Source: a virus | Direction: 5' to 3' (one strand) | Virus record (IMG/VR): IMGVR_UViG_3300008448_000667 | Location: 1 to 23,434 of that record | DNA: 23,434 nt | Shown here: positions 5,459 through 19,521 of the stretch, one piece after another | Layout of the letters: each line of letters opens with the position of its first letter | Numbering within the stretch: the stretch's first letter is position 1 | Made by a program: the position numbers and the translations under genes | The notes under the pieces: model-generated | Databases searched by the model: none | The model's input: the letters and a program-made list of their open reading frames with translations, nothing else | What the model was told of the DNA's origin: nothing

Positions 5459-7225
5459 ATGCTAACAGCACAAGAAATATTTAAAGAATATTCTAAATGT
5501 CTCATGAATCCAATTTATGCGATTGAGACTTATTTGGAAACATTCGACAAAACGCAAGAAGGGTTTGTTCCTTTTAAATTATTCCCAAGACAAAAAGAAA
5601 TTATTAACGCATATGAAAAAAATAGGTTTAACTTAGTTACTAAACCTAGACAGGCTGGGGTTTCTACCACTACCGCAGCATACATGGCAATAAAAGTTGG
5701 TTGGGCTGATGAAGATAACCCAGAAGCTGTTCTAATTATTGCAAACAAACAAGAATTGGCTTTTGAATTTTTGGCTAAAATTAAGGATTTTTTATCTCAG
5801 TTACCTAGATGGGTTTGGGGTCATGAGTATTATGGTAATCCTAAGAATGAAGGTAAAACAATATTCTTAACTGATTCTAAAAAAGAAATTAAATTACCAA
5901 ATGGTAGTCGTGTAAAGGCTGTTGCGACATCTAAGGATGCATTGCGTGGTTTTACACCTACTTTTCTTATTATGGATGAGGCAGCTTATATTGATAACGG
6001 TGCTGAGGTATTTGGTGCGGCACTTACTGCATTGGGTACGGGTGGTAGAGCAACTCTTATTTCTACACCTAATGGTATGGACCCATTATATTACAAAACT
6101 TATGACCAAGCAAGAACCAAGAAAAACAATTTCAATATTATTGAAATGAAATGGTATGAAGATTTACGTTATAATAAAGATTTAAGATGGTCAAAGGGTG
6201 ATGATGTTGAGAAAGAAATTTATTTTACTTTTGAATCTTATCAAAATAAAATAGCCGATGGATGGAAACCAACATCAAGTTGGTATGAAGAAATGTGTAT
6301 GGGTATGAACAATGATTCTCGTATGATTGCTCAAGAACTTGACGTTTCTTTCATTGGTTCTGGTGGTAATGTTATTACTGAAGAATACATTGAATTTCAC
6401 GAAAAAAACAATGTAATGGAACCAAAGATTACCATGGGGTTAGAAAATGAAATTTGGATATGGGAAGAACCTCAAGAAGGTCACCAATATATTATGGGTG
6501 TCGATGTATCTAGAGGTGACGGAGAAGATAGTTCTACAATTGTTGTGGTTGATTTTACCACTATGGAACAGGTTATGGAATATCAAGGTAAAATACAACC
6601 AGACTTATTAGCTCAAATTGTTGAGGAATATGGTGAGTTGTATGAGGCTTATACTGTAGTCGATGTTACTGGTGGTATGGGTGTATCAACAGTTCTTAAG
6701 TTATTAGAATTTAATTATAAACGTTTGCATTATGATGATGCAACTGGTAAAATATTATCTGTTAGACAAAGAGAGTTAAACACTCATTTAAAAAAAGATA
6801 AAATACCAGGTTTTCACGCTACAAATGTACGTGTACCAATGATTTCAAATTTAGAATATAAGATTAGAAGTAATGCTATTAAGATTCGTTCTAGTCGTTT
6901 AACTTCTGAAATGAAAACATTTATATATAAAAATGGTAGACCAGACCATATGGATGGTTATCATGATGATTTGCTTATGTCATTAGCCATGTGTTTGTGG
7001 GTAATGGAACATTCATTTAAAAAACTTGAAAGGCTTGAAAAGCAAAATAAAGCAATATTAAGTAGTTGGTTAACTGGGGCTAATGTCTCAAGTTCACCAA
7101 CAGTTAAAGAGAAGGACCAAGTTACTGGTAATGTTGTACAAAAAATAAACCCCACGCATACTGCTTATAGAAATATTCAAGACCCTAGAGGTCAGTATTC
7201 GTGGTTATTCGCTAAACCTAAATAA
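5459..7225 (+). CDS. terL: Terminase large subunit (T4 gp17-like)
   Basis: This is the DNA-packaging motor: an N-terminal ATPase that translocates DNA through the portal and a C-terminal RNase H-fold nuclease that cuts concatemers. The Walker A-like motif is TKPRQAGVSTT (residues 61-71), Walker B with the catalytic Glu is FLIMDEA (169-175, D173/E174), and the coupling motif is LISTPNG (200-206). In the nuclease the expected acidic residues are D349 (MGVDVSRGDGEDSS), D402 (VVDVTGG) and D503/D504 (YHDDLLMSLA). The length, 588 residues, is close to T4 gp17 (610). The ATG at 5459 follows an A-rich leader with no Shine-Dalgarno sequence. Two small paralogous genes follow and then the portal, so packaging genes are grouped. 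All key residues are present, so the protein should be active. Confidence 0.96.
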   Translation: MLTAQEIFKEYSKCLMNPIYAIETYLETFDKTQEGFVPFKLFPRQKEIINAYEKNRFNLVTKPRQAGVSTTTAAYMAIKVGWADEDNPEAVLIIANKQELAFEFLAKIKDFLSQLPRWVWGHEYYGNPKNEGKTIFLTDSKKEIKLPNGSRVKAVATSKDALRGFTPTFLIMDEAAYIDNGAEVFGAALTALGTGGRATLISTPNGMDPLYYKTYDQARTKKNNFNIIEMKWYEDLRYNKDLRWSKGDDVEKEIYFTFESYQNKIADGWKPTSSWYEEMCMGMNNDSRMIAQELDVSFIGSGGNVITEEYIEFHEKNNVMEPKITMGLENEIWIWEEPQEGHQYIMGVDVSRGDGEDSSTIVVVDFTTMEQVMEYQGKIQPDLLAQIVEEYGELYEAYTVVDVTGGMGVSTVLKLLEFNYKRLHYDDATGKILSVRQRELNTHLKKDKIPGFHATNVRVPMISNLEYKIRSNAIKIRSSRLTSEMKTFIYKNGRPDHMDGYHDDLLMSLAMCLWVMEHSFKKLERLEKQNKAILSSWLTGANVSSSPTVKEKDQVTGNVVQKINPTHTAYRNIQDPRGQYSWLFAKPK

Positions 7226-7227
7226 TC

Positions 7228-7491
7228 ATGGCAAGAAAAGACTCATGTGGTCAATTTAAAAAAAGTGTTAATTTTGACCTTTACAATTGGTGCCCAGGCC
7301 CAAAAGATTTTAACAAATCATTAAATGGTGGTAGACCAAATAATAAAACAAAAACAATATCAAATAATTTTTGTACAGCAACGGCTGGTTCTCAGGGTAT
7401 TGATTTTATTAGTACTTACGTTTATAATGTAGTAACAATAAATGGAGAACCTAGTAGAATAGCTTATGTTGAATGTAATTATATGGTTTAA
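7228..7491 (+). CDS. Small phage protein, paralogue 1 of a tandem pair (87 aa)
   Basis: The protein has no signal peptide or membrane helix. It shares with its neighbour (7511-7774) the pattern FDLYNWCP..., NNK near residue 40, then FCTATAGSQGIDF, a TYVYN segment and a C-terminal SRIAYVECNY. Roughly half the residues match over the full length, so the pair arose by tandem duplication. This copy has an extra Cys early (KDSCGQ) and in NWCP. I do not recognise the family. The position between terminase and portal is where T4 has the sheath and tube genes, but the proteins are far too small for either. A minor structural or head-completion role is possible but unproven. Confidence 0.6.
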   Translation: MARKDSCGQFKKSVNFDLYNWCPGPKDFNKSLNGGRPNNKTKTISNNFCTATAGSQGIDFISTYVYNVVTINGEPSRIAYVECNYMV

Positions 7492-7510: not shown

Positions 7511-7774
7511 ATGGCTAATAAAAATCAACGCGGTCCTTATTTTAGAAAAACTGGTGGGTTTGATGTGTATAAATGGTATCCATTACCTAACAATTATGAT
7601 AAATCACAAAACACTGGTAGACTAAATAATAAAAATCAAGCAAGCCCTTATTTTTGCACAGCATCGTCTGGCTCTCAAGGTATTGATTTTACTAATACTT
7701 ACATTTACAATAACATACTTATAAATAATGAAGCTAGCAGACTAGCTTATATTGAGTGTGATTATGTTTCTTAA
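7511..7774 (+). CDS. Small phage protein, paralogue 2 of a tandem pair (87 aa)
   Basis: This is the second copy of the pair described at 7228-7491. Conserved segments are FDVYKWYP, NNK, FCTASSGSQGIDF, NTYIYN and SRLAYIECDY. The Cys residues near the N-terminus of copy 1 are lost (KWYP instead of NWCP), while one Cys in FCTA and one in IEC remain in both. Predicted to be a small beta-rich protein of unknown function. It starts 20 bases after copy 1 and ends 48 bases before the portal ATG, so it is probably co-transcribed with the terminase. Confidence 0.6.
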   Translation: MANKNQRGPYFRKTGGFDVYKWYPLPNNYDKSQNTGRLNNKNQASPYFCTASSGSQGIDFTNTYIYNNILINNEASRLAYIECDYVS

Positions 7775-7822: not shown

Positions 7823-9919
7823 ATGGCAAAAGAAAATTTAACTATATTTCAGAGATTAAACAGGGTTGTTAATCCAAATTATAATCCACCACAAAAACAA
7901 ACAACACAACGTTTTAATTTGGGTGGTGGTGAATTGTTAAAAACAACTAACAAACAAGAATACGATGCCGCAAAATTACAAGCACAACAAAACAAGTATT
8001 TGCAAAGTACTTGGAAACGTGTTGAGAATGGATTATTTCAACAGTCTATAAATTATGAAACAACTCGTGTTGGTTCTTATGCTGATTTTGAGGCTATGGA
8101 ATTTTATCCAACAATTGCAGCAGCGTTAGATGTTATGATGGAAGAATCAACGACTGTAAATGATAGAGGTAGAGTTTTAAATATATATTCTGATAGTAAA
8201 CGTGTTAAGGGTATTTTAGAAGATTTATTCTTCAATAGACTTGATTTACACACCACATTGCCAATGTGGACTAGAAATACATGTAAGTATGGTGATAACT
8301 TTGTTTATTTAAACATTAATGATAGACAAGGTATTGTTTCAACTAAACAAATGCCTAACTATGAAATAGAACGTAGAGAAGCTGGTTTATATGATTTGGT
8401 TAGTGGTAGAGAATATTCTGATGACCAATCAGAAAATAGAGATAGAGTTAAATTCTATTGGAGAGGTCGTGATGTTGAATTTAATTCATGGCAAATAGCC
8501 CATTTTCGTTTACTAGGTGATGATAGAAGACTACCTTATGGTACTTCAGTTTTAGAAAAAGCTAGACGTATTTGGAAGCAACTTATTTTATCTGAAGATT
8601 CAATGCTTGTATATCGTGTAACTAGAGCACCAGAAAGACGTGTATATAAAATATATGTTGGTAACATTGATGATGCTGATGTTGAACAATATGTAAATGC
8701 AATCGCTGATAGATTTAAACGTATGCCAATTGTTGACCCACAAACTGGTCAAATTGATTTAAGATATAACCAATTATCAAACGACCAAGATTATTTTATC
8801 CCAGTAAGAGATGAGTCAGCACCAAATCCAATAGATACACTACCAGGTGCCTCAAACTTAGACCAAATCGCTGATATTGAATACTTGCAAAGAAATTTAT
8901 TCACAGCTTTGCGTGTACCTAAACCATTTTTAGGTTTTGATGAAACAACAGGAGAAGGTAAAAATTTAGCATTACAGGATATACGTTTTTCTAGAACTAT
9001 AAATCGTATTCAACAATCAATGCTTCAAGAATTAAATAAGATAGCAATTATACATTTGTTTATTTTAGGTTTTGAAGAAGATTTAGATAATTTTACACTT
9101 ACACTTAATAATCCATCTACACAAGCTGAAATGCTTAAGATTGAACATTTAACTTCTAAGGTTACTCTTGTTAAAGATGCAACATCTGATATTGGTACTG
9201 GATTTGGAGTTATGTCATGGACTAGAGCTCATAGAGATATATTGGGTTGGTCTGATGATGAAATTAAACAAGACTTACTTGAGCAACGTATGGAGAAAGC
9301 AGCTTCTGCTGAATTACAAAATACTGCAACAATTATTAAACATACTGGTATGTTTGATGCTGTTGATAAGATATACGGTGATTATGAAGCCGCATTAAAA
9401 GGTGCTCAAGGTGGTGGTGAAACTGGTGCTGAAGCTGCGCCTGCCGCTGGTGGCGGTGGAGGTGGAAGCTTCGGTGGAGGCGGTTTTGGTGGAGGCGGCC
9501 TAGGTGGTGAAGATTTAGATTTCGGTGGTGAAGCTGGAGCAGAGGCTGGAGCAGAAGCAGGGGCAGAAGCTGGAGCAGAAGCTGGAGCGGCACCTGAAGC
9601 TGGAGCAGAAGCTGGGGCAGCACCTGAGGCTGGAGCAGCGCCTGAGGCTGGAGCAGCACCTGAGGCTGGAGCAGAACCATTAGCAGAATCTTTAAAAAGA
9701 ACTGAGAATCTTTTAATTGAAAGAAAAGAAAAATTAAATAAAGAGTTGGCCGAAAGAACAAAAAAATATCAAAATCGTTTTGTTGATGTCTTGGTTGAAT
9801 CGGTAAAACCAAAGGGTGATGAGAGTGATGTTAGTGTTAAGATTTACGATAAAAACGTTAAGATTAATGAAGATGTTAACAATATGATAGATGATATAAA
9901 TAAAATGTTGGATGAATAA
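7823..9919 (+). CDS. Portal vertex protein (T4 gp20-like) with low-complexity C-terminal insert
   Basis: The portal dodecamer at one head vertex nucleates head assembly, docks the terminase and later the neck. Residues ~60-520 match the gp20 pattern: YPTIAAALDVMMEESTT, CKYGDNFVYLN, then YGTSVLEKARRIWKQL (~239-254) and VTRAPERRVYKIYVGN, followed by the wing/stem part with RVPKPFLGFDE. T4 gp20 is 524 residues; this protein has 698 because of a tail. The tail has a Gly-rich stretch (~530-565), then tandem EAGA and APEAGA units (~569-617), then a charged helical end (LIERKEKLNKELAERTKKYQNRF). LAE (620-622) and INE near the C-terminus resemble prohead-protease sites, so the tail may be trimmed in the mature head (inference). 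Translation starts after an A-rich leader without Shine-Dalgarno. Confidence 0.93.
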   Translation: MAKENLTIFQRLNRVVNPNYNPPQKQTTQRFNLGGGELLKTTNKQEYDAAKLQAQQNKYLQSTWKRVENGLFQQSINYETTRVGSYADFEAMEFYPTIAAALDVMMEESTTVNDRGRVLNIYSDSKRVKGILEDLFFNRLDLHTTLPMWTRNTCKYGDNFVYLNINDRQGIVSTKQMPNYEIERREAGLYDLVSGREYSDDQSENRDRVKFYWRGRDVEFNSWQIAHFRLLGDDRRLPYGTSVLEKARRIWKQLILSEDSMLVYRVTRAPERRVYKIYVGNIDDADVEQYVNAIADRFKRMPIVDPQTGQIDLRYNQLSNDQDYFIPVRDESAPNPIDTLPGASNLDQIADIEYLQRNLFTALRVPKPFLGFDETTGEGKNLALQDIRFSRTINRIQQSMLQELNKIAIIHLFILGFEEDLDNFTLTLNNPSTQAEMLKIEHLTSKVTLVKDATSDIGTGFGVMSWTRAHRDILGWSDDEIKQDLLEQRMEKAASAELQNTATIIKHTGMFDAVDKIYGDYEAALKGAQGGGETGAEAAPAAGGGGGGSFGGGGFGGGGLGGEDLDFGGEAGAEAGAEAGAEAGAEAGAAPEAGAEAGAAPEAGAAPEAGAAPEAGAEPLAESLKRTENLLIERKEKLNKELAERTKKYQNRFVDVLVESVKPKGDESDVSVKIYDKNVKINEDVNNMIDDINKMLDE
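9403..9675 (+). repeat. G-rich coding repeat in portal C-terminus (Gly tract plus EAGA/APEAGA units)
   Basis: Within the portal gene, 9403-9528 encodes Gly-rich low-complexity sequence. 9529-9675 consists of 12-base units encoding E-A-G-A, some expanded to A-P-E-A-G-A. Units differ mainly at third positions (gaa/gag, gct/gca, gga/ggg), so the peptide pattern is kept while the DNA has drifted. The stretch is clearly richer in G than anything nearby. It produces spurious long open frames on the other strand. Confidence 0.85.
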
Positions 9920-11893: not shown

Positions 11894-12619
11894 ATGGATA
11901 TAAATTATAAAGATTTCAAAATACTTAAAAGAGGTGAATCTGGTTGGGGTGGTCTTATTGAACATGATGCTGGATATATCAGCCCAGATGAACCTAGAAA
12001 TCAACCTTTCATCAACGAAATAAAAAAATTAGACGGTGGTAGCAAATTAGCTATTGTTGAACCCTTAATTGTATATGTAGTTCTTCAAAAATATGGTGTA
12101 CTTAATCGTAATGGTAGGGTATATCCTGAATCTGTTTTGAAAAAACAAGTTGAGCTTTATCAAGAAGCAATTAGAGAAAGAAGAGCTGTTGGTGAATTAG
12201 ACCACCCAGAATCTTCAATTATTGCTGGTGATAGAATTTCTCACAATATCACTGAAACATGGTGGGAAGGAAAAACTCTTATGGGTAAAATGGAAATCCT
12301 AATGACACCAGGTTTCATAAACTATGGTATCGTATCTACAAAAGGGGATGAAGTTGCAAATTTACTAAGAAATAGAATTAAAATTGGTGTATCATCTAGA
12401 GGTGTTGGTTCTTTAAAAGAAGGTAAAAACGGAGAACAAATAGTACAGGATGATTTTGAGATAATTTGTTGGGATGTTGTTACAGCACCTTCAACACCAG
12501 ATGCTTGGATTGGTCGTAGTGCTGAAGAAATGAGACCTTATGTTGAAAACACTGAAATTAAGAAACCTATTATAAATGAAAATTTAAAAGATAGCTTAGA
12601 CAAATTTTTAGCAGACTAA
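11894..12619 (+). CDS. Prohead maturation protease (T4 gp21-type, S77/S80-like)
   Basis: This serine protease is packaged in the prohead core, then digests the scaffold and trims the capsid and internal proteins, cutting after Glu in (L/I)-x-E in T4. The family pattern is clear: a start-region NRNGRVYP (71-78), the catalytic His in GELDHPES (H104), and the catalytic Ser in IGVSSRGVGS (S167 or S168), with the segment DFEIICWDVVTAPSTPDAW (188-205) after it. Its length, 241 residues, is typical. The C-terminus carries PIINENLKDSL with INE at 227-229, a likely self-processing site, as T4 gp21 also cleaves itself. It lies directly before the scaffold and capsid genes, as in T4. The GELDHPE form is closer to the S80-type enzymes of T4-like phages than to T4 gp21 itself (family recall, not computed). 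Confidence 0.92.
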   Translation: MDINYKDFKILKRGESGWGGLIEHDAGYISPDEPRNQPFINEIKKLDGGSKLAIVEPLIVYVVLQKYGVLNRNGRVYPESVLKKQVELYQEAIRERRAVGELDHPESSIIAGDRISHNITETWWEGKTLMGKMEILMTPGFINYGIVSTKGDEVANLLRNRIKIGVSSRGVGSLKEGKNGEQIVQDDFEIICWDVVTAPSTPDAWIGRSAEEMRPYVENTEIKKPIINENLKDSLDKFLAD

Positions 12620-12739: not shown

Positions 12740-13993
12740 ATGGCAGATAAAAAACCTATACTTGAAGAAGCACTTTTGGATATTAACCATATTCAAAACG
12801 CTCTTAATGCCAATACCAAAGAAATACTTCGTTCAATTGCGAAAGAAGAAATTAACGGTGTTGTGAAAGAATCCCTAGAAGAAGGGGTTTATGAAGAAAT
12901 GGACGTGGCCGAATCCACGTATGAAGAAGGTTATGTGAAACAAGAAGGTATGTACAAAGAAGGTATGTACGAAGAAGGAATGGATGGTATGGAACCATCA
13001 GAGGAACTTGATATGACTGATGCATCAGATGATGAAGTTATTGCTATCTACAAAAAAATGAGTGGTGATGATGAAATCGAAATTGTTGGCGATGAATTAC
13101 ACTTAAACATCAGCGAGCCTGGAGAGTACGTTGTTAAACTTAATGGTTCTGGAGAATCTGAAGAAGACTATGACGACGAAGATGAAGATGAATTGGAATT
13201 AGAACCTATGGATGCCATGGGTGATGATGAAGAAATCGAAATCGGAGACGAAGATGAGCCTGAGGATGATGAAGAATATGACGACGAAGGAGAAAGCGAA
13301 GATGATGATGAAGGAGATTACGACTATGAAATAGAATTGGATGATGAAGAATCTGATGGGGACGATGAAGAGCCTACTGAAGATGGTGAAGAATCTGATG
13401 AAATAGAATCTACTGAAGACGATGAAGAGTCTGAAGAAGAAGACATAGAAGAAGCTATGAGTTACACTAGAGGTTATGCTGGTAGACAAGGTGCTAGAAA
13501 AAATGGTGCTAGTCACGAACCAAAACAAAAATCTGAAAGTGTAAACGAAGCAATCGTTGCAAAAAAATTAGTTTCTGAAACAGCTAAAAAATATAACGCT
13601 TTACTAACTGAAGCAACTAAGCTTAAAGCTGAAAACAATGAGTTCAGAGCAGCTCTTAAAGAGTTTAGAACAAAACTAGTTGAGACAGTTGTTTTCAATA
13701 GCAATTTAACATACGTAACTAAATTGTTTATGGAACACTCAACAACTAAAGGTGAAAAAGATTCAATCCTTAAAAGATTTGATGAAGTTACTAGCCTTAA
13801 AGAATCAAAAAAGCTTTACAAAACTATTGCTAATGAATTGGAAGTTAGAAAACCAATTTCAGAATCAGTAGAAAACAAAATTATTAAAGAGGCTACTAGT
13901 GGTGTATCAAAACAAATCGTAGAAAGCACTGCTTACGTAGACCCTTCAACAAAGAGAATCATGGATTTGATTAACAGAGTTGAAAAAAGATAA
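12740..13993 (+). CDS. Prohead core scaffolding protein (T4 gp22-like)
   Basis: The scaffold forms the inner core around which the capsid lattice assembles, and is then broken into peptides by the prohead protease. The N-terminal 60 residues are helical; residues 61-85 carry short EGM(Y) repeats. Residues ~138-238 are extremely acidic (runs of D and E). The C-terminal ~150 residues are a helical domain with VFNSNLTYVTKLFMEHST and DSILKRFDEVTSLKESKKLYK (about 318-361), which I recognise as the conserved part of gp22-type scaffolds. There are many [L/I/V]-x-E sites (VNE 268-270, VSE 278-280, LTE 289-291, ISE 373-375, IKE 382-384), matching a protein meant to be degraded. It is longer than T4 gp22 (269) because of the acidic insert. 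Codons more often end in C than in flanking accessory genes, in line with high expression. Confidence 0.9.
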   Translation: MADKKPILEEALLDINHIQNALNANTKEILRSIAKEEINGVVKESLEEGVYEEMDVAESTYEEGYVKQEGMYKEGMYEEGMDGMEPSEELDMTDASDDEVIAIYKKMSGDDEIEIVGDELHLNISEPGEYVVKLNGSGESEEDYDDEDEDELELEPMDAMGDDEEIEIGDEDEPEDDEEYDDEGESEDDDEGDYDYEIELDDEESDGDDEEPTEDGEESDEIESTEDDEESEEEDIEEAMSYTRGYAGRQGARKNGASHEPKQKSESVNEAIVAKKLVSETAKKYNALLTEATKLKAENNEFRAALKEFRTKLVETVVFNSNLTYVTKLFMEHSTTKGEKDSILKRFDEVTSLKESKKLYKTIANELEVRKPISESVENKIIKEATSGVSKQIVESTAYVDPSTKRIMDLINRVEKR

Positions 13994-14026: not shown

Positions 14027-15862
14027 ATGTCACATTTATTGACTTCAGGACAAGTTGGTAACATCGGATTAAACCACATGAAGGCTATCCGTTTGGAAAC
14101 TCAACAAAAATGGGACTCTTTAGGCTTCTTAGATGGTCTTAAAGGTCACGTTAAAGAAAATATCGCTCAGTTATATGAAAACCAAGCTTCTAGCTTGTTA
14201 ACTGAATCTACTAACGCTACATCATCAGGTTCTTTCGAAACTGTTGTATTCCCAATCGTTAGAAGAGTATTCTCTAAATTATTAGCTAACGACGTTGTGT
14301 CTGTACAAGCTATGAACATGCCAATTGGTAAATTGTTCTATTTCGTACCTCTTACATCAGAGCGTGTAAACGAAAATGGTGTTGGTGGAAATTATTATGA
14401 TGGAGACGGTGCTACTTATTCTGCACACACTTCAATGGGTGTAGACGGTATTCCATCATGTGTTCAAACTGTTGGTGGTTGTGCTGTTACTCCATGGATG
14501 GGTAAAAACTTATATGATTTATTCTACAATGACGGTTTATTTGACCAATCAAAAGGTACATTAACAATTAATGTAACTGGTAATTTAGCTGTTTATACTT
14601 TAACAACTGGTGGTACTTTCTCTATTGTTGCTGGTGCTGGTACTGTGTTACCAACTGCTGCTGACGGTACTGTTAGAAACGTAATCGTTGCTCTTTCTGG
14701 TTTCTCAGCTGGTGCTGGTACTAATGGTAGAGAAGTATTAACAGGTCCAAATGGTAACCCAATGGATACTGAATCATTCTTAGCTTCATTAAAAGTTGTT
14801 GCTCCTGCTACATTATTAGATAATGATGGTAATGCTGTAATAGGTATTGGTCAGGAAGTTCCTTTCCGTTTAGTAACTCAAAGATATGGTGTTGGTATCG
14901 TATCTGGTCCAAATGTTATAACTGATGGTAACGGTGTTTGTTGGTTGGAGTTAGACTTGTCTCACCCAGCTGGAACTACAGCTGTTGCTGGTAGCGCATC
15001 TTATCCAGGTACTGCTACTTACGATGGTTATAAAGGTGCTTCTGCTACAACGCTTAGTTCATTCTCTGCTTTCACTGCTGCTTACGCTACATATGCTAGC
15101 TTAGAGTTTGAAACAGAAATGGGTGAAGTATCATTCAGACTTGATGAAGTTGTTGTTTCTGTAGAAGAAAGAAAATTAAGAGCTACATGGTCTCCAGAGT
15201 TAGCACAAGACGTTAGTGCATTCCACAACATCGATGCTGAAGCTGAATTAACTGCAATGTTATCAGAGCAAGTTGCTGCTGAGATTGACCGTGAAATCCT
15301 TAGAGATTTACGTAAAGCTGCTGCATGGCAATTGCGTTGGGATTACAACGGATGGAGAAAAACTTCAAACGCTGCTCAACCATATACTCAAAAAGAGTGG
15401 AATCAAACTTTAATTACTAAAGTTAACCAAATTTCTGCTCAAATCCATAAATCTACACTTAGAGGTGGTGCTAACTTCATCGTTGTATCTTCAGAGATTT
15501 CTGCAATCTTCGACGACTTAGAGTACTTCCACGTGTCAGACGCTAACCCTGAGCAAGACCAATACAACATGGGTATTGAGAGAATCGGTTCATTAGGTGG
15601 AAGATATCAAGTATATCGTGACCCATATGCACCAGCATACTCAGTAATCATCGGTCACAAAGGTAAATCATTATTGGATACTGGATACATCTACGCTCCG
15701 TATGTGCCATTACAGTTAACTCCAACAATGTACAACCCATTCAACTTCGCTCCAGTGAAAGGTATCATGACTCGTTACGCTAAAAAAGTAGTTAACAATA
15801 GATTCTATGGTCACTTGAGAGTTGACGGTGTTCAAACATTCAACACTAATGAATTAAGATAA
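14027..15862 (+). CDS. Major capsid protein (T4 gp23-like)
   Basis: This protein forms the hexamers of the head shell. T4 gp23 loses 65 residues to the protease at an LTE site; here SSLLTE/STNATSS places the equivalent cut after E60. Conserved HK97-fold segments follow: VVFPIVRRVFSKLLANDVVSVQAMNMPIGKLFYF (73-106), KLRATWSPELAQDVSAFHNIDAEAELTAML (383-412) and, near the end, LGGRYQVYRDPYAPAYSVIIGHKG and YIYAPYVPLQL. At 611 residues it exceeds T4 gp23 (521). The extra length lies mainly between ~165 and ~360, a Gly/Thr/Ala-rich beta-type insertion that may form a surface domain. Codon use favours C-ending codons for Ile, Phe and Asn, as expected for the most abundant virion protein. It follows the scaffold by 33 bases with no terminator between. 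Confidence 0.96.
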   Translation: MSHLLTSGQVGNIGLNHMKAIRLETQQKWDSLGFLDGLKGHVKENIAQLYENQASSLLTESTNATSSGSFETVVFPIVRRVFSKLLANDVVSVQAMNMPIGKLFYFVPLTSERVNENGVGGNYYDGDGATYSAHTSMGVDGIPSCVQTVGGCAVTPWMGKNLYDLFYNDGLFDQSKGTLTINVTGNLAVYTLTTGGTFSIVAGAGTVLPTAADGTVRNVIVALSGFSAGAGTNGREVLTGPNGNPMDTESFLASLKVVAPATLLDNDGNAVIGIGQEVPFRLVTQRYGVGIVSGPNVITDGNGVCWLELDLSHPAGTTAVAGSASYPGTATYDGYKGASATTLSSFSAFTAAYATYASLEFETEMGEVSFRLDEVVVSVEERKLRATWSPELAQDVSAFHNIDAEAELTAMLSEQVAAEIDREILRDLRKAAAWQLRWDYNGWRKTSNAAQPYTQKEWNQTLITKVNQISAQIHKSTLRGGANFIVVSSEISAIFDDLEYFHVSDANPEQDQYNMGIERIGSLGGRYQVYRDPYAPAYSVIIGHKGKSLLDTGYIYAPYVPLQLTPTMYNPFNFAPVKGIMTRYAKKVVNNRFYGHLRVDGVQTFNTNELR

Positions 15863-15881
15863 TTTAATCTTATATAAACCT

Positions 15882-15914
15882 AAAAAAGGCTACCATACGG
15901 TGGCCTTTTTTGTT
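15882..15914 (+). terminator. Strong rho-independent terminator after the capsid gene (repeat copy A)
   Basis: AAAAAAGGCTACC (15882-15894) pairs with GGTGGCCTTTTTT (15899-15911), 13 bp with one G-U pair and a four-base loop, ending in a T run. It ends the head operon. It is the first part of a ~65-bp direct repeat whose second copy is at 16945-17011. Confidence 0.88.
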
Positions 15915-15933: not shown

Positions 15934-16956
15934 ATGAAGAAAATAATTAAAAAATTACTTAGAGAACACATATTAAAATCACCATTTAAGGGTAGAAATA
16001 TTTATTACCATATAACCAATTTAGAAAATGCGATAAATATGATTGAAACCAATAAAATTGATGGGAATAGTCCTCAAGAAATAACTACTAAATTTAATAA
16101 AAAAACACCTATTTTTGGTATATCTTTTTCACGAGATAGTGAAATAAAATGGAGAGGTGGAGTTCAATTAATATTAAATGGTGATTTAATTAAACAAGAT
16201 TATGGTAAAAAAATAATGCCATTTGATTTTATTAAAGGTGCTTACCCTAAATCACACCCAATTAGGAATACTGATTGGTCAGCAGGTATCCCAAAAGTAT
16301 TTAGAAAAAATGAAAAAGGTGATTATTATGATTATACTGACAAACATGATTTTGATAATGAGCCAGATTATAATTATTATTTAGCAACTACAGCTCCTCT
16401 AAGTGAAGAATTTTTAATAGGTGATTTAGAACCATTATCTAAATATTTATTAGGTGTTAGATTATACAACATTGAAGATGCTATAATTCATAAATCAACA
16501 AAAAATGATGAATATGTACGTTTTTTTAAATTGATTAAAAATGTACCATTTTTTAATAAAGATTTTGAAAGATTAAATATTGATAACTTTATCAACAATA
16601 AGACATCAATTAGTGATACAATAATTAATTTATTTAATAAAACTGGTAAAATGAAATCTCGTGACATAATTGTTGCAAGTAAAGAACCAGATTTCATTGA
16701 TAAATTAATATCTAATGATATTAATAAATTACCAATTCAGGATGAATTATTATATTTACTTGCTTATTCACCAGAAACAGAAAAAATATTAAACGCTTTA
16801 AACCAAAAAAATTTAAAAAGTTTTTTATTTGCTATGAATGACTATGGCGGTGCAGGTTTGAAACATTTTATTAGAGATATGGTCCCTCCAAATAAACAAG
16901 ATGAATTATTAATAAAAATTAAATTTTATTTAGATAAATACAATAAAAAAGGCTAG
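15934..16956 (+). CDS. Predicted ADP-ribosyltransferase with capsid-targeting-like N-terminus
   Basis: I use the ATG at 15934; the frame runs up to a TTG at 15910, but that lies in the terminator. The N-terminus MKKIIKKLLRE/H is basic and ends in a likely prohead-protease site; the same LLRE start occurs in the gene at 18787-19521. The following domain resembles ADP-ribosyltransferases: NIYYHITNLENAINMIE with H26, then FGISFSRDSE (S64/S66, R67), a strand QLILNGDLIK, MPFDF, and an acidic motif APLSEEFLIGDLEPLSKYL (E158/E159). This gives an H-S-E order. The C-terminal ~160 residues are helical and not recognised. T4 Alt is a precedent for an ADP-ribosyltransferase that is packaged, trimmed and injected. 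No target can be named. The final codons (KKG, stop) lie in the second repeat copy, so the 3' end was shaped by the duplication. Confidence 0.6.
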   Translation: MKKIIKKLLREHILKSPFKGRNIYYHITNLENAINMIETNKIDGNSPQEITTKFNKKTPIFGISFSRDSEIKWRGGVQLILNGDLIKQDYGKKIMPFDFIKGAYPKSHPIRNTDWSAGIPKVFRKNEKGDYYDYTDKHDFDNEPDYNYYLATTAPLSEEFLIGDLEPLSKYLLGVRLYNIEDAIIHKSTKNDEYVRFFKLIKNVPFFNKDFERLNIDNFINNKTSISDTIINLFNKTGKMKSRDIIVASKEPDFIDKLISNDINKLPIQDELLYLLAYSPETEKILNALNQKNLKSFLFAMNDYGGAGLKHFIRDMVPPNKQDELLIKIKFYLDKYNKKG

Positions 16957-16979: not shown

Positions 16980-16988
16980 TATATAAGA

Positions 16989-16996
16989 TATTTATA
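16989..16996 (+). promoter_or_regulatory. Candidate phage promoter motif (TATTTATA) in repeat copy B
   Basis: The octamer ends three bases before the ATG at 17000, exactly as in copy A. Confidence 0.45.
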
Positions 16997-16999
16997 GAT

Positions 17000-17644
17000 A
17001 TGAAGAAAATATTTTTACTTATAACATTGTTCATAACAATGAACATGTTTTCACAAACGGTCACAACTGATAATAAACTAATCATACCACATGGAGATAT
17101 TACATTGTATTTAACGAAAGATACGTGTGCTTTTGTATCTAAACACGTTTTAAAATATTCTAGCTTTTTAAAGCTCGATAAAGAGCGTGATAATCGTTGG
17201 TTTCAAGATACGTACAAAGGTAAATACTATAAAGACGCATATTTGAAAACTGGTTATGATATTGGACACTTAACACCATCACACATCACATCATATGACA
17301 ATGAGTTAAACCATAAATCATTTAGCTTGTTTAATGCAGCGCCACAACTAGCTGGTTTCAATAGAGGTAAATGGGCTCAAATGGAAGGTGATGTTGAGAA
17401 TATAATCGCTAAGTCAAAGCAAAATGTTGTTATTATCACTGGAGTTATATATAACTCAAATAACATAAGATTTATGGGTAAGTCTAGAATACCAATACCA
17501 GAATCTTTTTTTAAGATTTTATTTATCAATGGTTCAACACAATGTTGGGTTGGGTCAAATATCAACGGGTTAATCGTAAACATTACATTAAAGAATTTAA
17601 ATGAATTATTTAAGATGAATAAAATGAATTTAACAATACAATAA
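17000..17644 (+). CDS. Secreted DNA/RNA non-specific endonuclease (NUC1, ββα-metal)
   Basis: The ATG at 17000 gives a clear signal peptide: MKKIF, a hydrophobic core (LLITLFITMNMF) and a likely cut at about residue 19 (FSQ/T). Residues ~25-210 are a DNA/RNA non-specific endonuclease. The catalytic motif is GYDIGHLTPS with general base H90; the usual DRGH has Ile in place of Arg. The metal-binding Asn is N121 in the segment FNAAPQLAGFNRGKWAQMEG (111-130). A typical NUC1 C-terminal part (VVIITGVIY...IPIPESFFKILF) follows. The enzyme should cut DNA and RNA without sequence preference outside the cytoplasm. The signal peptide protects the infected cell and phage genome. Possible roles are recycling host nucleic acid after lysis or blocking incoming DNA in the periplasm; neither is proven. 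It is the last plus-strand gene before the convergent terminator. Confidence 0.88.
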   Translation: MKKIFLLITLFITMNMFSQTVTTDNKLIIPHGDITLYLTKDTCAFVSKHVLKYSSFLKLDKERDNRWFQDTYKGKYYKDAYLKTGYDIGHLTPSHITSYDNELNHKSFSLFNAAPQLAGFNRGKWAQMEGDVENIIAKSKQNVVIITGVIYNSNNIRFMGKSRIPIPESFFKILFINGSTQCWVGSNINGLIVNITLKNLNELFKMNKMNLTIQ

Positions 17645-18786: not shown

Positions 18787-19521
18787 TTATTGAAAATCTG
18801 AACCCATCTCACATAGAGTGGATTGAATTTGATGCCAATAAGTATCTGCTTCATCTGGCATTGAATCTCCAGACATACCATATTTCTTTACTTCACTATC
18901 AATTTCAATTTTTTCGTGTTTTAAATTTGATAATGGTGTGTGAATGGTCCTCATTATATCATTTCTAGTTTGTTCATCCATATCTTTTAAAGCACCATTA
19001 ACATACATCACGGCTTCTTCATAACTATTTATCGTCATTTTATTACAAAGAGTTTCCATAGTTTGGTTCATTTCTTGACCGTCTATTACGTTTTCGTTTA
19101 GTTTTTTAGATTTAATATAACCCATTACTTTTTGTATATCACCTTCTTGGTCTTCGCAACTAAATGTAGATAAAGCAGTTTCTTCATCTATTTGTACTAT
19201 TGTAACACGTTTTACTTCGTTATCAAATAAACAACTTTGTTTCATTTCTTTACCTGTAGATTCACCGTTGGAATCCATGTATTTACCATTTGGTAATTTT
19301 ACCATTATATGACAGTCTTCATAATCCAATTCTCTTTTACCACCCCATTCTGGTTCTAAAAACCAACCTCTAACAACATATAACGGATACCCATATAATC
19401 TATGTAGTGAAACTGCGTAGATATCACAATCACCAAAATTAAAATTGTGTTTGTCAAAATCATAATCATCGGTATATTTACCATATGATTCTCTAAGCAA
19501 TTTTTTTATAAAACTTTTCAT
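18787..19521 (-). CDS. Predicted packaged cysteine-peptidase-like protein with LLRE N-terminus (244 aa)
   Basis: The N-terminus MKSFIKKLLRE/S nearly repeats that of the ADP-ribosyltransferase (MKKIIKKLLRE/H); the DNA encoding KKLLRE also matches, so the two leaders share ancestry. After it comes a domain with C32 (FGDCDIYAVSLHRLYGYP), H71 (EDCHIMVKL) and D83 (NGKYMDSNG), the Cys-His-Asp order of papain/transglutaminase-like enzymes; the family is not certain and activity is unproven. Residues ~140-244, after another likely site (LNE 141-143), form a separate helical segment. A packaged protein trimmed after E11 and E143 is inferred. Its start codon overlaps the stop of the preceding structural gene by one base (TAATG), so the two are co-translated late in infection. 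Confidence 0.6.
   Translation of the reverse strand: MKSFIKKLLRESYGKYTDDYDFDKHNFNFGDCDIYAVSLHRLYGYPLYVVRGWFLEPEWGGKRELDYEDCHIMVKLPNGKYMDSNGESTGKEMKQSCLFDNEVKRVTIVQIDEETALSTFSCEDQEGDIQKVMGYIKSKKLNENVIDGQEMNQTMETLCNKMTINSYEEAVMYVNGALKDMDEQTRNDIMRTIHTPLSNLKHEKIEIDSEVKKYGMSGDSMPDEADTYWHQIQSTLCEMGSDFQ

Follow-up and report, generated by a model that had tools for sequence, protein, structure and literature searches.

A candidate virion-packaged ADP-ribosyltransferase with a DarT-like fold, encoded beside the capsid gene of a T4-type phage contig

Introduction

The strategy of packaging an ADP-ribosyltransferase (ART) in the virion is already known, from Alt of phage T4 and from the work of Iyer et al. 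(2017, 2022). We examine here an open reading frame (ORF) in IMG/VR virus record IMGVR_UViG_3300008448_000667, of which positions 1 to 23,434, taken as a whole virus contig of 23.4 kb, are called the window. The ORF, at 15934-16956 on the plus strand, starts 74 bp 3' of a T4-type major capsid gene, and its 340-aa product, the window protein, is quite probably a virion-packaged ART.

In T4, the prohead protease cleaves after L/I-X-E, capsid-targeting sequences are leaders of 10-19 residues, and the Alt cleavage site is ITE-6 (PMC9026906, PMC5694885). Alt and the window protein have in common that they are ARTs of T4-type phages whose short N-terminal propeptide ends in [L/I]-x-E. Packaging and ejection are known for Alt and proposed for the window protein, and the two differ in gene position and in ART clade, Alt belonging to the R-S-E clade whereas the window protein has a motif I histidine and a DarT-like predicted fold. 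The T4 internal proteins IPI-IPIII are similar in that mature proteins with no relation to one another share a short N-terminal leader cut at L/I-X-E, but the leader here, MKxxIKKLLRE, and its cargo are distinct from theirs, and packaging here is a prediction from sequence.

In DarT, H13 and T15 bind NAD+, and R51 and E160, in the numbering of the Thermus enzyme, are required for the reaction (PMC9967889). The window protein is like DarT (DarT1/DarT2) in its modelled fold and in the order of the H-x-T, Arg and Glu motifs. It is unlike DarT in having no match to the DarT model PF14487, whether the window was searched or the protein and its near relatives were scanned with Pfam, in having no recognised antitoxin partner, and in being phage-encoded beside a capsid gene with a predicted cleavable leader. 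ART-PolyVal (PF18760) and the polyvalent proteins also include ARTs of phages for which packaging and injection have been predicted; Iyer et al. (PMC9503650) used gene context to argue that packaging of phage ARTs is frequent, and named 16 viral ART families. Some relatives of the window protein are likewise multidomain, with nucleotidyltransferase (NTase), deaminase or several ART domains, but the ART family is another one, and here a protease-like site is conserved before each ART domain.

Family and fold of the window protein

The computation supports an ART fold, a family, conserved residues of catalytic type and a conserved protease-like site. Direct searches with the single protein, including Pfam, NCBIfam and PDB sequences, gave no significant match, and PF18760 gave none for the window protein. 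Relatives were gathered through neighbouring genes, the baits being the capsid protein and the nuclease encoded further downstream. Three distinct homologues (L091, L093 and L012), directly 3' of the capsid gene, have 44-45% identity over residues 1-215 and end without the C-terminal half of the window protein (about residues 216-340); an insertion of about 50 residues inside the domain is mostly absent from them as well, and is the window protein's own. The profile of these close homologues reached a 412-aa protein (L151) at E = 1.3e-5, which led to "hypothetical proteins" of Alishewanella, Dickeya, Vibrio, Pseudomonas, Rhizobium and Microcystis phages. Two further scans yielded about 90 IMG/VR loci; in the loci fetched, the domain is present on 120 ORFs. 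When the window's clade is left out of the profile, the window protein is still recovered at 8.9e-6 (hhalign 96.9%), at an overall identity to the wider family of about 14-26%. Pfam gave no convincing match to the family and NCBIfam no informative one, and an unnamed PHROG is touched by only 3 of 61 members. GTDB genome contigs scanned with the family patterns contained no relative, which weakly suggests a phage-bound family. Atu_ph07, chosen from a BFVD fold match and as a phage with a published virion proteome, has no member by the family profile, and no proteome turned up for a phage that does have one.

The AlphaFold2 (AF2) model used was built with 61 sequences and has a mean predicted local distance difference test (pLDDT) score of 77, with core blocks above 90; a single-sequence model (pLDDT 55) was set aside. 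The top five Foldseek matches in the PDB are all DarT chains (probability 0.98-0.99, E about 0.01), and the next are Tpt1/KptA chains, which are also ARTs, intermixed with low-probability helical proteins. Since the top matches are all DarT, the model supports an ART fold that is DarT-like rather than Alt-like. The family profile against PDB sequences has DarT1 as its best match, aligned at the H-x-T motif with E = 0.43, not significant alone, and a 4-member profile gave chance matches only. In BFVD, the model matches a Tupanvirus protein (E = 3.2e-4) and, more weakly, proteins of Klosneuvirus and Pithovirus, hinting that giant viruses may carry related ARTs.

A sequence-only reading of this stretch had proposed a resemblance to ART folds, resting on H26, S64-x-S66-R and E158-E159. 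The fold prediction and search agree with the resemblance, an unrelated fold having failed to appear, and most of the residue set stands: across 61 diverse rows of the family alignment, H26 and E158 are found in 100%, S64 and R67 in 98%, and position 159 is D or E in all; S66 falls outside the conserved set. The motif I residue is His in 61 of the 61 rows, where an R-S-E ART would have Arg, and the motif I His and the catalytic Glu come in the expected order. The order H26-I27-T28, R67, E158 parallels H13/T15, R51, E160 of DarT, the equivalence of residues being taken from that order. The helical, unrecognised C-terminal half described in the same reading is also seen, as AF2 predicts helices there and no convincing match to it was found among the fetched ORFs.

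Leader and protease-like site

The window protein starts with MKKIIKKLLRE, whose end, LLRE11, matches the L/I-X-E motif of T4 gp21, and E11 is E in 95% of the 61 rows. By its sequence, the leader fits a T4-type capsid-targeting sequence. Across the family, [LIVFM]-x-E occurs at most 14 residues before the YH motif in 90 of 105 members, versus 19% of random 14-mers, and the gap from Glu to Tyr is six residues in 79 of those 90. When a single distance to the ART domain is required, 78 of 92 members have the site, against 4.4 on average and 13 at most in shuffles; after thinning to <45% identity, 37 of 49 have it. The site precedes every one of the 13 ART domains that start more than 100 residues into longer open frames, among them three ARTs in tandem in a single frame of 1,372 aa.

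Some marks of T4-type capsid-targeted internal head proteins are found here, namely a short leader with a prohead-protease-like site at its end, a cognate prohead protease, encoded 3.3 kb upstream of the ART gene, and a like site in the capsid protein. The predicted propeptide cleavage of the capsid protein falls between SLLTE60 and STNA, the same L-L/I-x-E type of site as in the leader, and this L-[LI]-x-E site is kept in relatives, with Glu in 86 of the 86 rows that have a residue there. A member of the broad family with IQKLLRE (L170) is located directly 3' of its own capsid gene. A signal peptide was rejected as an explanation, since the leader is a short, basic stretch that lacks a hydrophobic core.

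Leaders of the MKxxIKKLLRE type are present on many unrelated ORFs. In the loci holding a capsid gene, none of the 39 leader ORFs is upstream of it and all are downstream, the sequence covered being of similar extent on either side; because the phages are related, these counts are not fully independent.

The gene's place downstream of the capsid gene and a cleavable leader had both been put forward from the sequence. The first is confirmed, and the second is supported by the family-wide conservation of the site, by its recurrence in the capsid protein and by the encoded protease. The lack of likeness to Alt noted then is matched by His rather than Arg in motif I and by the DarT-like fold. The further idea of a separate invention of the Alt strategy is right as to a different ART clade, but the invention is not wholly separate, as a T4-type capsid-targeting leader seems to be attached.

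Proposed role and alternatives

We infer packaging, cleavage, ejection, activity and a target as follows. The ART would be made late alongside the head proteins, and its basic leader would carry it into the core of the prohead. Cleavage after E11 would be by the prohead protease, as would that of the capsid protein after LLTE60, and the mature enzyme of about 329 residues would be retained in the head and ejected with the DNA. In the host, NAD+ would be bound via H26 and T28 and broken using R67 and E158, with the ADP-ribose transferred to a host macromolecule. Because the fold is DarT-like, nucleic acid is a somewhat likelier target than RNA polymerase.

Several points weigh against this scheme. 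The Foldseek E is only about 0.01 and the template modelling scores (TM-scores) are 0.27-0.31 on the query, low because the helical extension and the insertion make up much of the model. In the window's clade, the near-invariant R of ExEDR is replaced by F160, the first Glu of ExE has shifted or been substituted, and the protease-like site is 14 and not 6 residues before YH, so that the case for a leader there rests on LLRE and on the leaders of relatives. Some members (Dickeya JA, Sen-NF) begin at the ART domain and have no leader. A terminator-like hairpin between the capsid and ART genes makes their co-expression uncertain.

The alternative that survives best, though we think it unlikely, is that the ART is active but is produced once infection has begun and stays inside the cell, in the manner of T4 ModA/ModB or of a DarT-type toxin, the leader being no capsid address. 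The leaderless members would suit it, as would the closest fold being that of a toxin-antitoxin enzyme, but the cut site is conserved across the family and before internal domains, leader ORFs lie only downstream of the capsid gene, and no DarG or NADAR-like antitoxin was recognised adjoining the gene. Less probable again is a packaged ART-fold protein that does not catalyze, and would be a binder of NAD+, ADP-ribose or nucleic acid, or a component of the core. The changes near the catalytic Glu in the window's clade and the gain of the insertion could be read in that way, but H26, S64, R67 and E158 have all been kept despite the low identity to the wider family. A relative of the RNA 2'-phosphotransferase Tpt1/KptA serving RNA repair, suggested by the Tpt1/KptA chains next after DarT and by a Vibrio phage D484 relative near an RNA ligase, is hardly credible, as DarT scores higher, Pfam has no KptA family match and a capsid address is ill-suited to routine repair.

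If the packaged ART is real, a DarT-like family unannotated so far would be added to the early weapons of large phages. The family as assembled and the direct processing signature seem to be new, although the family may be among the 16 of Iyer et al. Most phage-injected proteins go unrecognised because they do not share sequence, and with a conserved address-and-cut label to look for beside the capsid gene, they could be catalogued from sequence only. The label also predicts exact mature N-termini, which can be checked by mass spectrometry.

Head module and gene layout

The features of the window are collected in Table 1. The ART ORF has an ATG at 15934 and no internal stops in translation, and the opposite strand is closed. 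An alternative in-frame TTG start at 15910 is possible, and the ATG is preferred because the MKxxIKKLLRE leader is then in register with those of the relatives.

Table 1. Coordinates of the ART gene, its parts and the surrounding head module in the window
Feature	Position	Strand	Basis or remark
Large terminase	5459-7225	+	T4-type head module
Portal	7823-9919	+	T4-type head module
Head maturation (prohead) protease	11894-12619	+	PHROG 207 at 7.6e-43
Acidic protein between protease and capsid genes, probable prohead core protein	12740-13993	+	Position and composition
Major capsid protein, gp23 type	14027-15862	+	PHROG 138 at 1.1e-67
Terminator-like hairpin between capsid and ART genes	15881-15912	+	14-pair stem with T-rich end
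17-mer element ATATTTATAGATATGAA	15922-15938	+	Overlaps ART start codon; identical copy at 16988-17004 before nuclease gene
Leader MKKIIKKLLRE, putative capsid-targeting sequence	15934-15966	+	Predicted cleavage after E11
ART-fold domain, residues 22-215	15997-16578	+	Family alignments, AF2 core, Foldseek to DarT and Tpt1/KptA
H26 codon	16009-16011	+	
S64 codon	16123-16125	+	
R67 codon	16132-16134	+	
Lineage-specific insertion inside domain, about residues 103-156	16240-16401	+	Low pLDDT
E158 codon	16405-16407	+	
Helical C-terminal extension, residues 216-340	16579-16953	+	Helices predicted (AF2)

A similar order of head genes, which is also part of the basis for the probable core protein, is annotated in Flavobacterium phage immuto, which is among the nearest named relatives by capsid protein; by annotation, immuto has no such cargo 3' of its capsid gene. 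Each copy of ATATTTATAGATATGAA comes after a hairpin that has a run of T, the hairpin before the second copy being judged by eye only, and elements resembling ATATTTATAGATATGAA are also found 5' of other leader ORFs. The element may be a late promoter or a start element, through which the genes would be exchangeable as cassettes. The gene after the ART encodes a DNA/RNA non-specific endonuclease (17000-17644, plus strand; PF01223 at 7.9e-28) with a signal-peptide-like N-terminal stretch ending MFSQ, and such an endonuclease adjoins the cargo slot in several relatives. Two neighbouring paralogous 87-aa ORFs, at 7228-7491 and 7511-7774, are located between the terminase and portal genes.

Other leader-tagged proteins and fusions

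The leader-tagged ORFs include ART-PolyVal above the curated cutoff, GNAT with ART-PolyVal, GNAT with a Tpt1-like part, and kinase-like, P-loop and nucleotidyltransferase-like proteins, some of these below curated cutoffs. With less assurance than for the ART itself, we lean towards an exchangeable cargo slot just 3' of the capsid gene, whose MKxxIKKLLRE-tagged proteins would be packed and trimmed and which would have been occupied successively by DarT-like ARTs, ART-PolyVal, GNATs, kinase-like and nucleotidyltransferase-like proteins and other effectors. If so, the leader would be a general sequence key to injected phage effectors in metagenomes.

The window has a second leader ORF, starting MKSFIKKLLRE, of 244 aa at 18787-19521 on the minus strand, and its C-terminal part reappears in relatives as a 112-aa leader ORF. 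One relative (L177:1-4116) has an open frame of 1,372 aa in which three ART domains stand in tandem, each after SLLKEGITDEVYHFT, together with DUF4116; by its sequence, the product looks like a cleavable polyprotein. ART fusions to nucleotidyltransferase-like, deaminase and DUF5661 domains are found at L238:4015-7020, L213:5296-6987, L216:2900-4765 and L233:5284-6864, and in these the protease-like site is immediately before the ART domain. Another common leader, MKIxxLYESLLEEG, is on a tandem ORF island of L156 / Alishewanella phage Slicko01, where the cargo, named by eye, comprises several ARTs and ART-PolyVal-like, ParB-like and kinase-like proteins.
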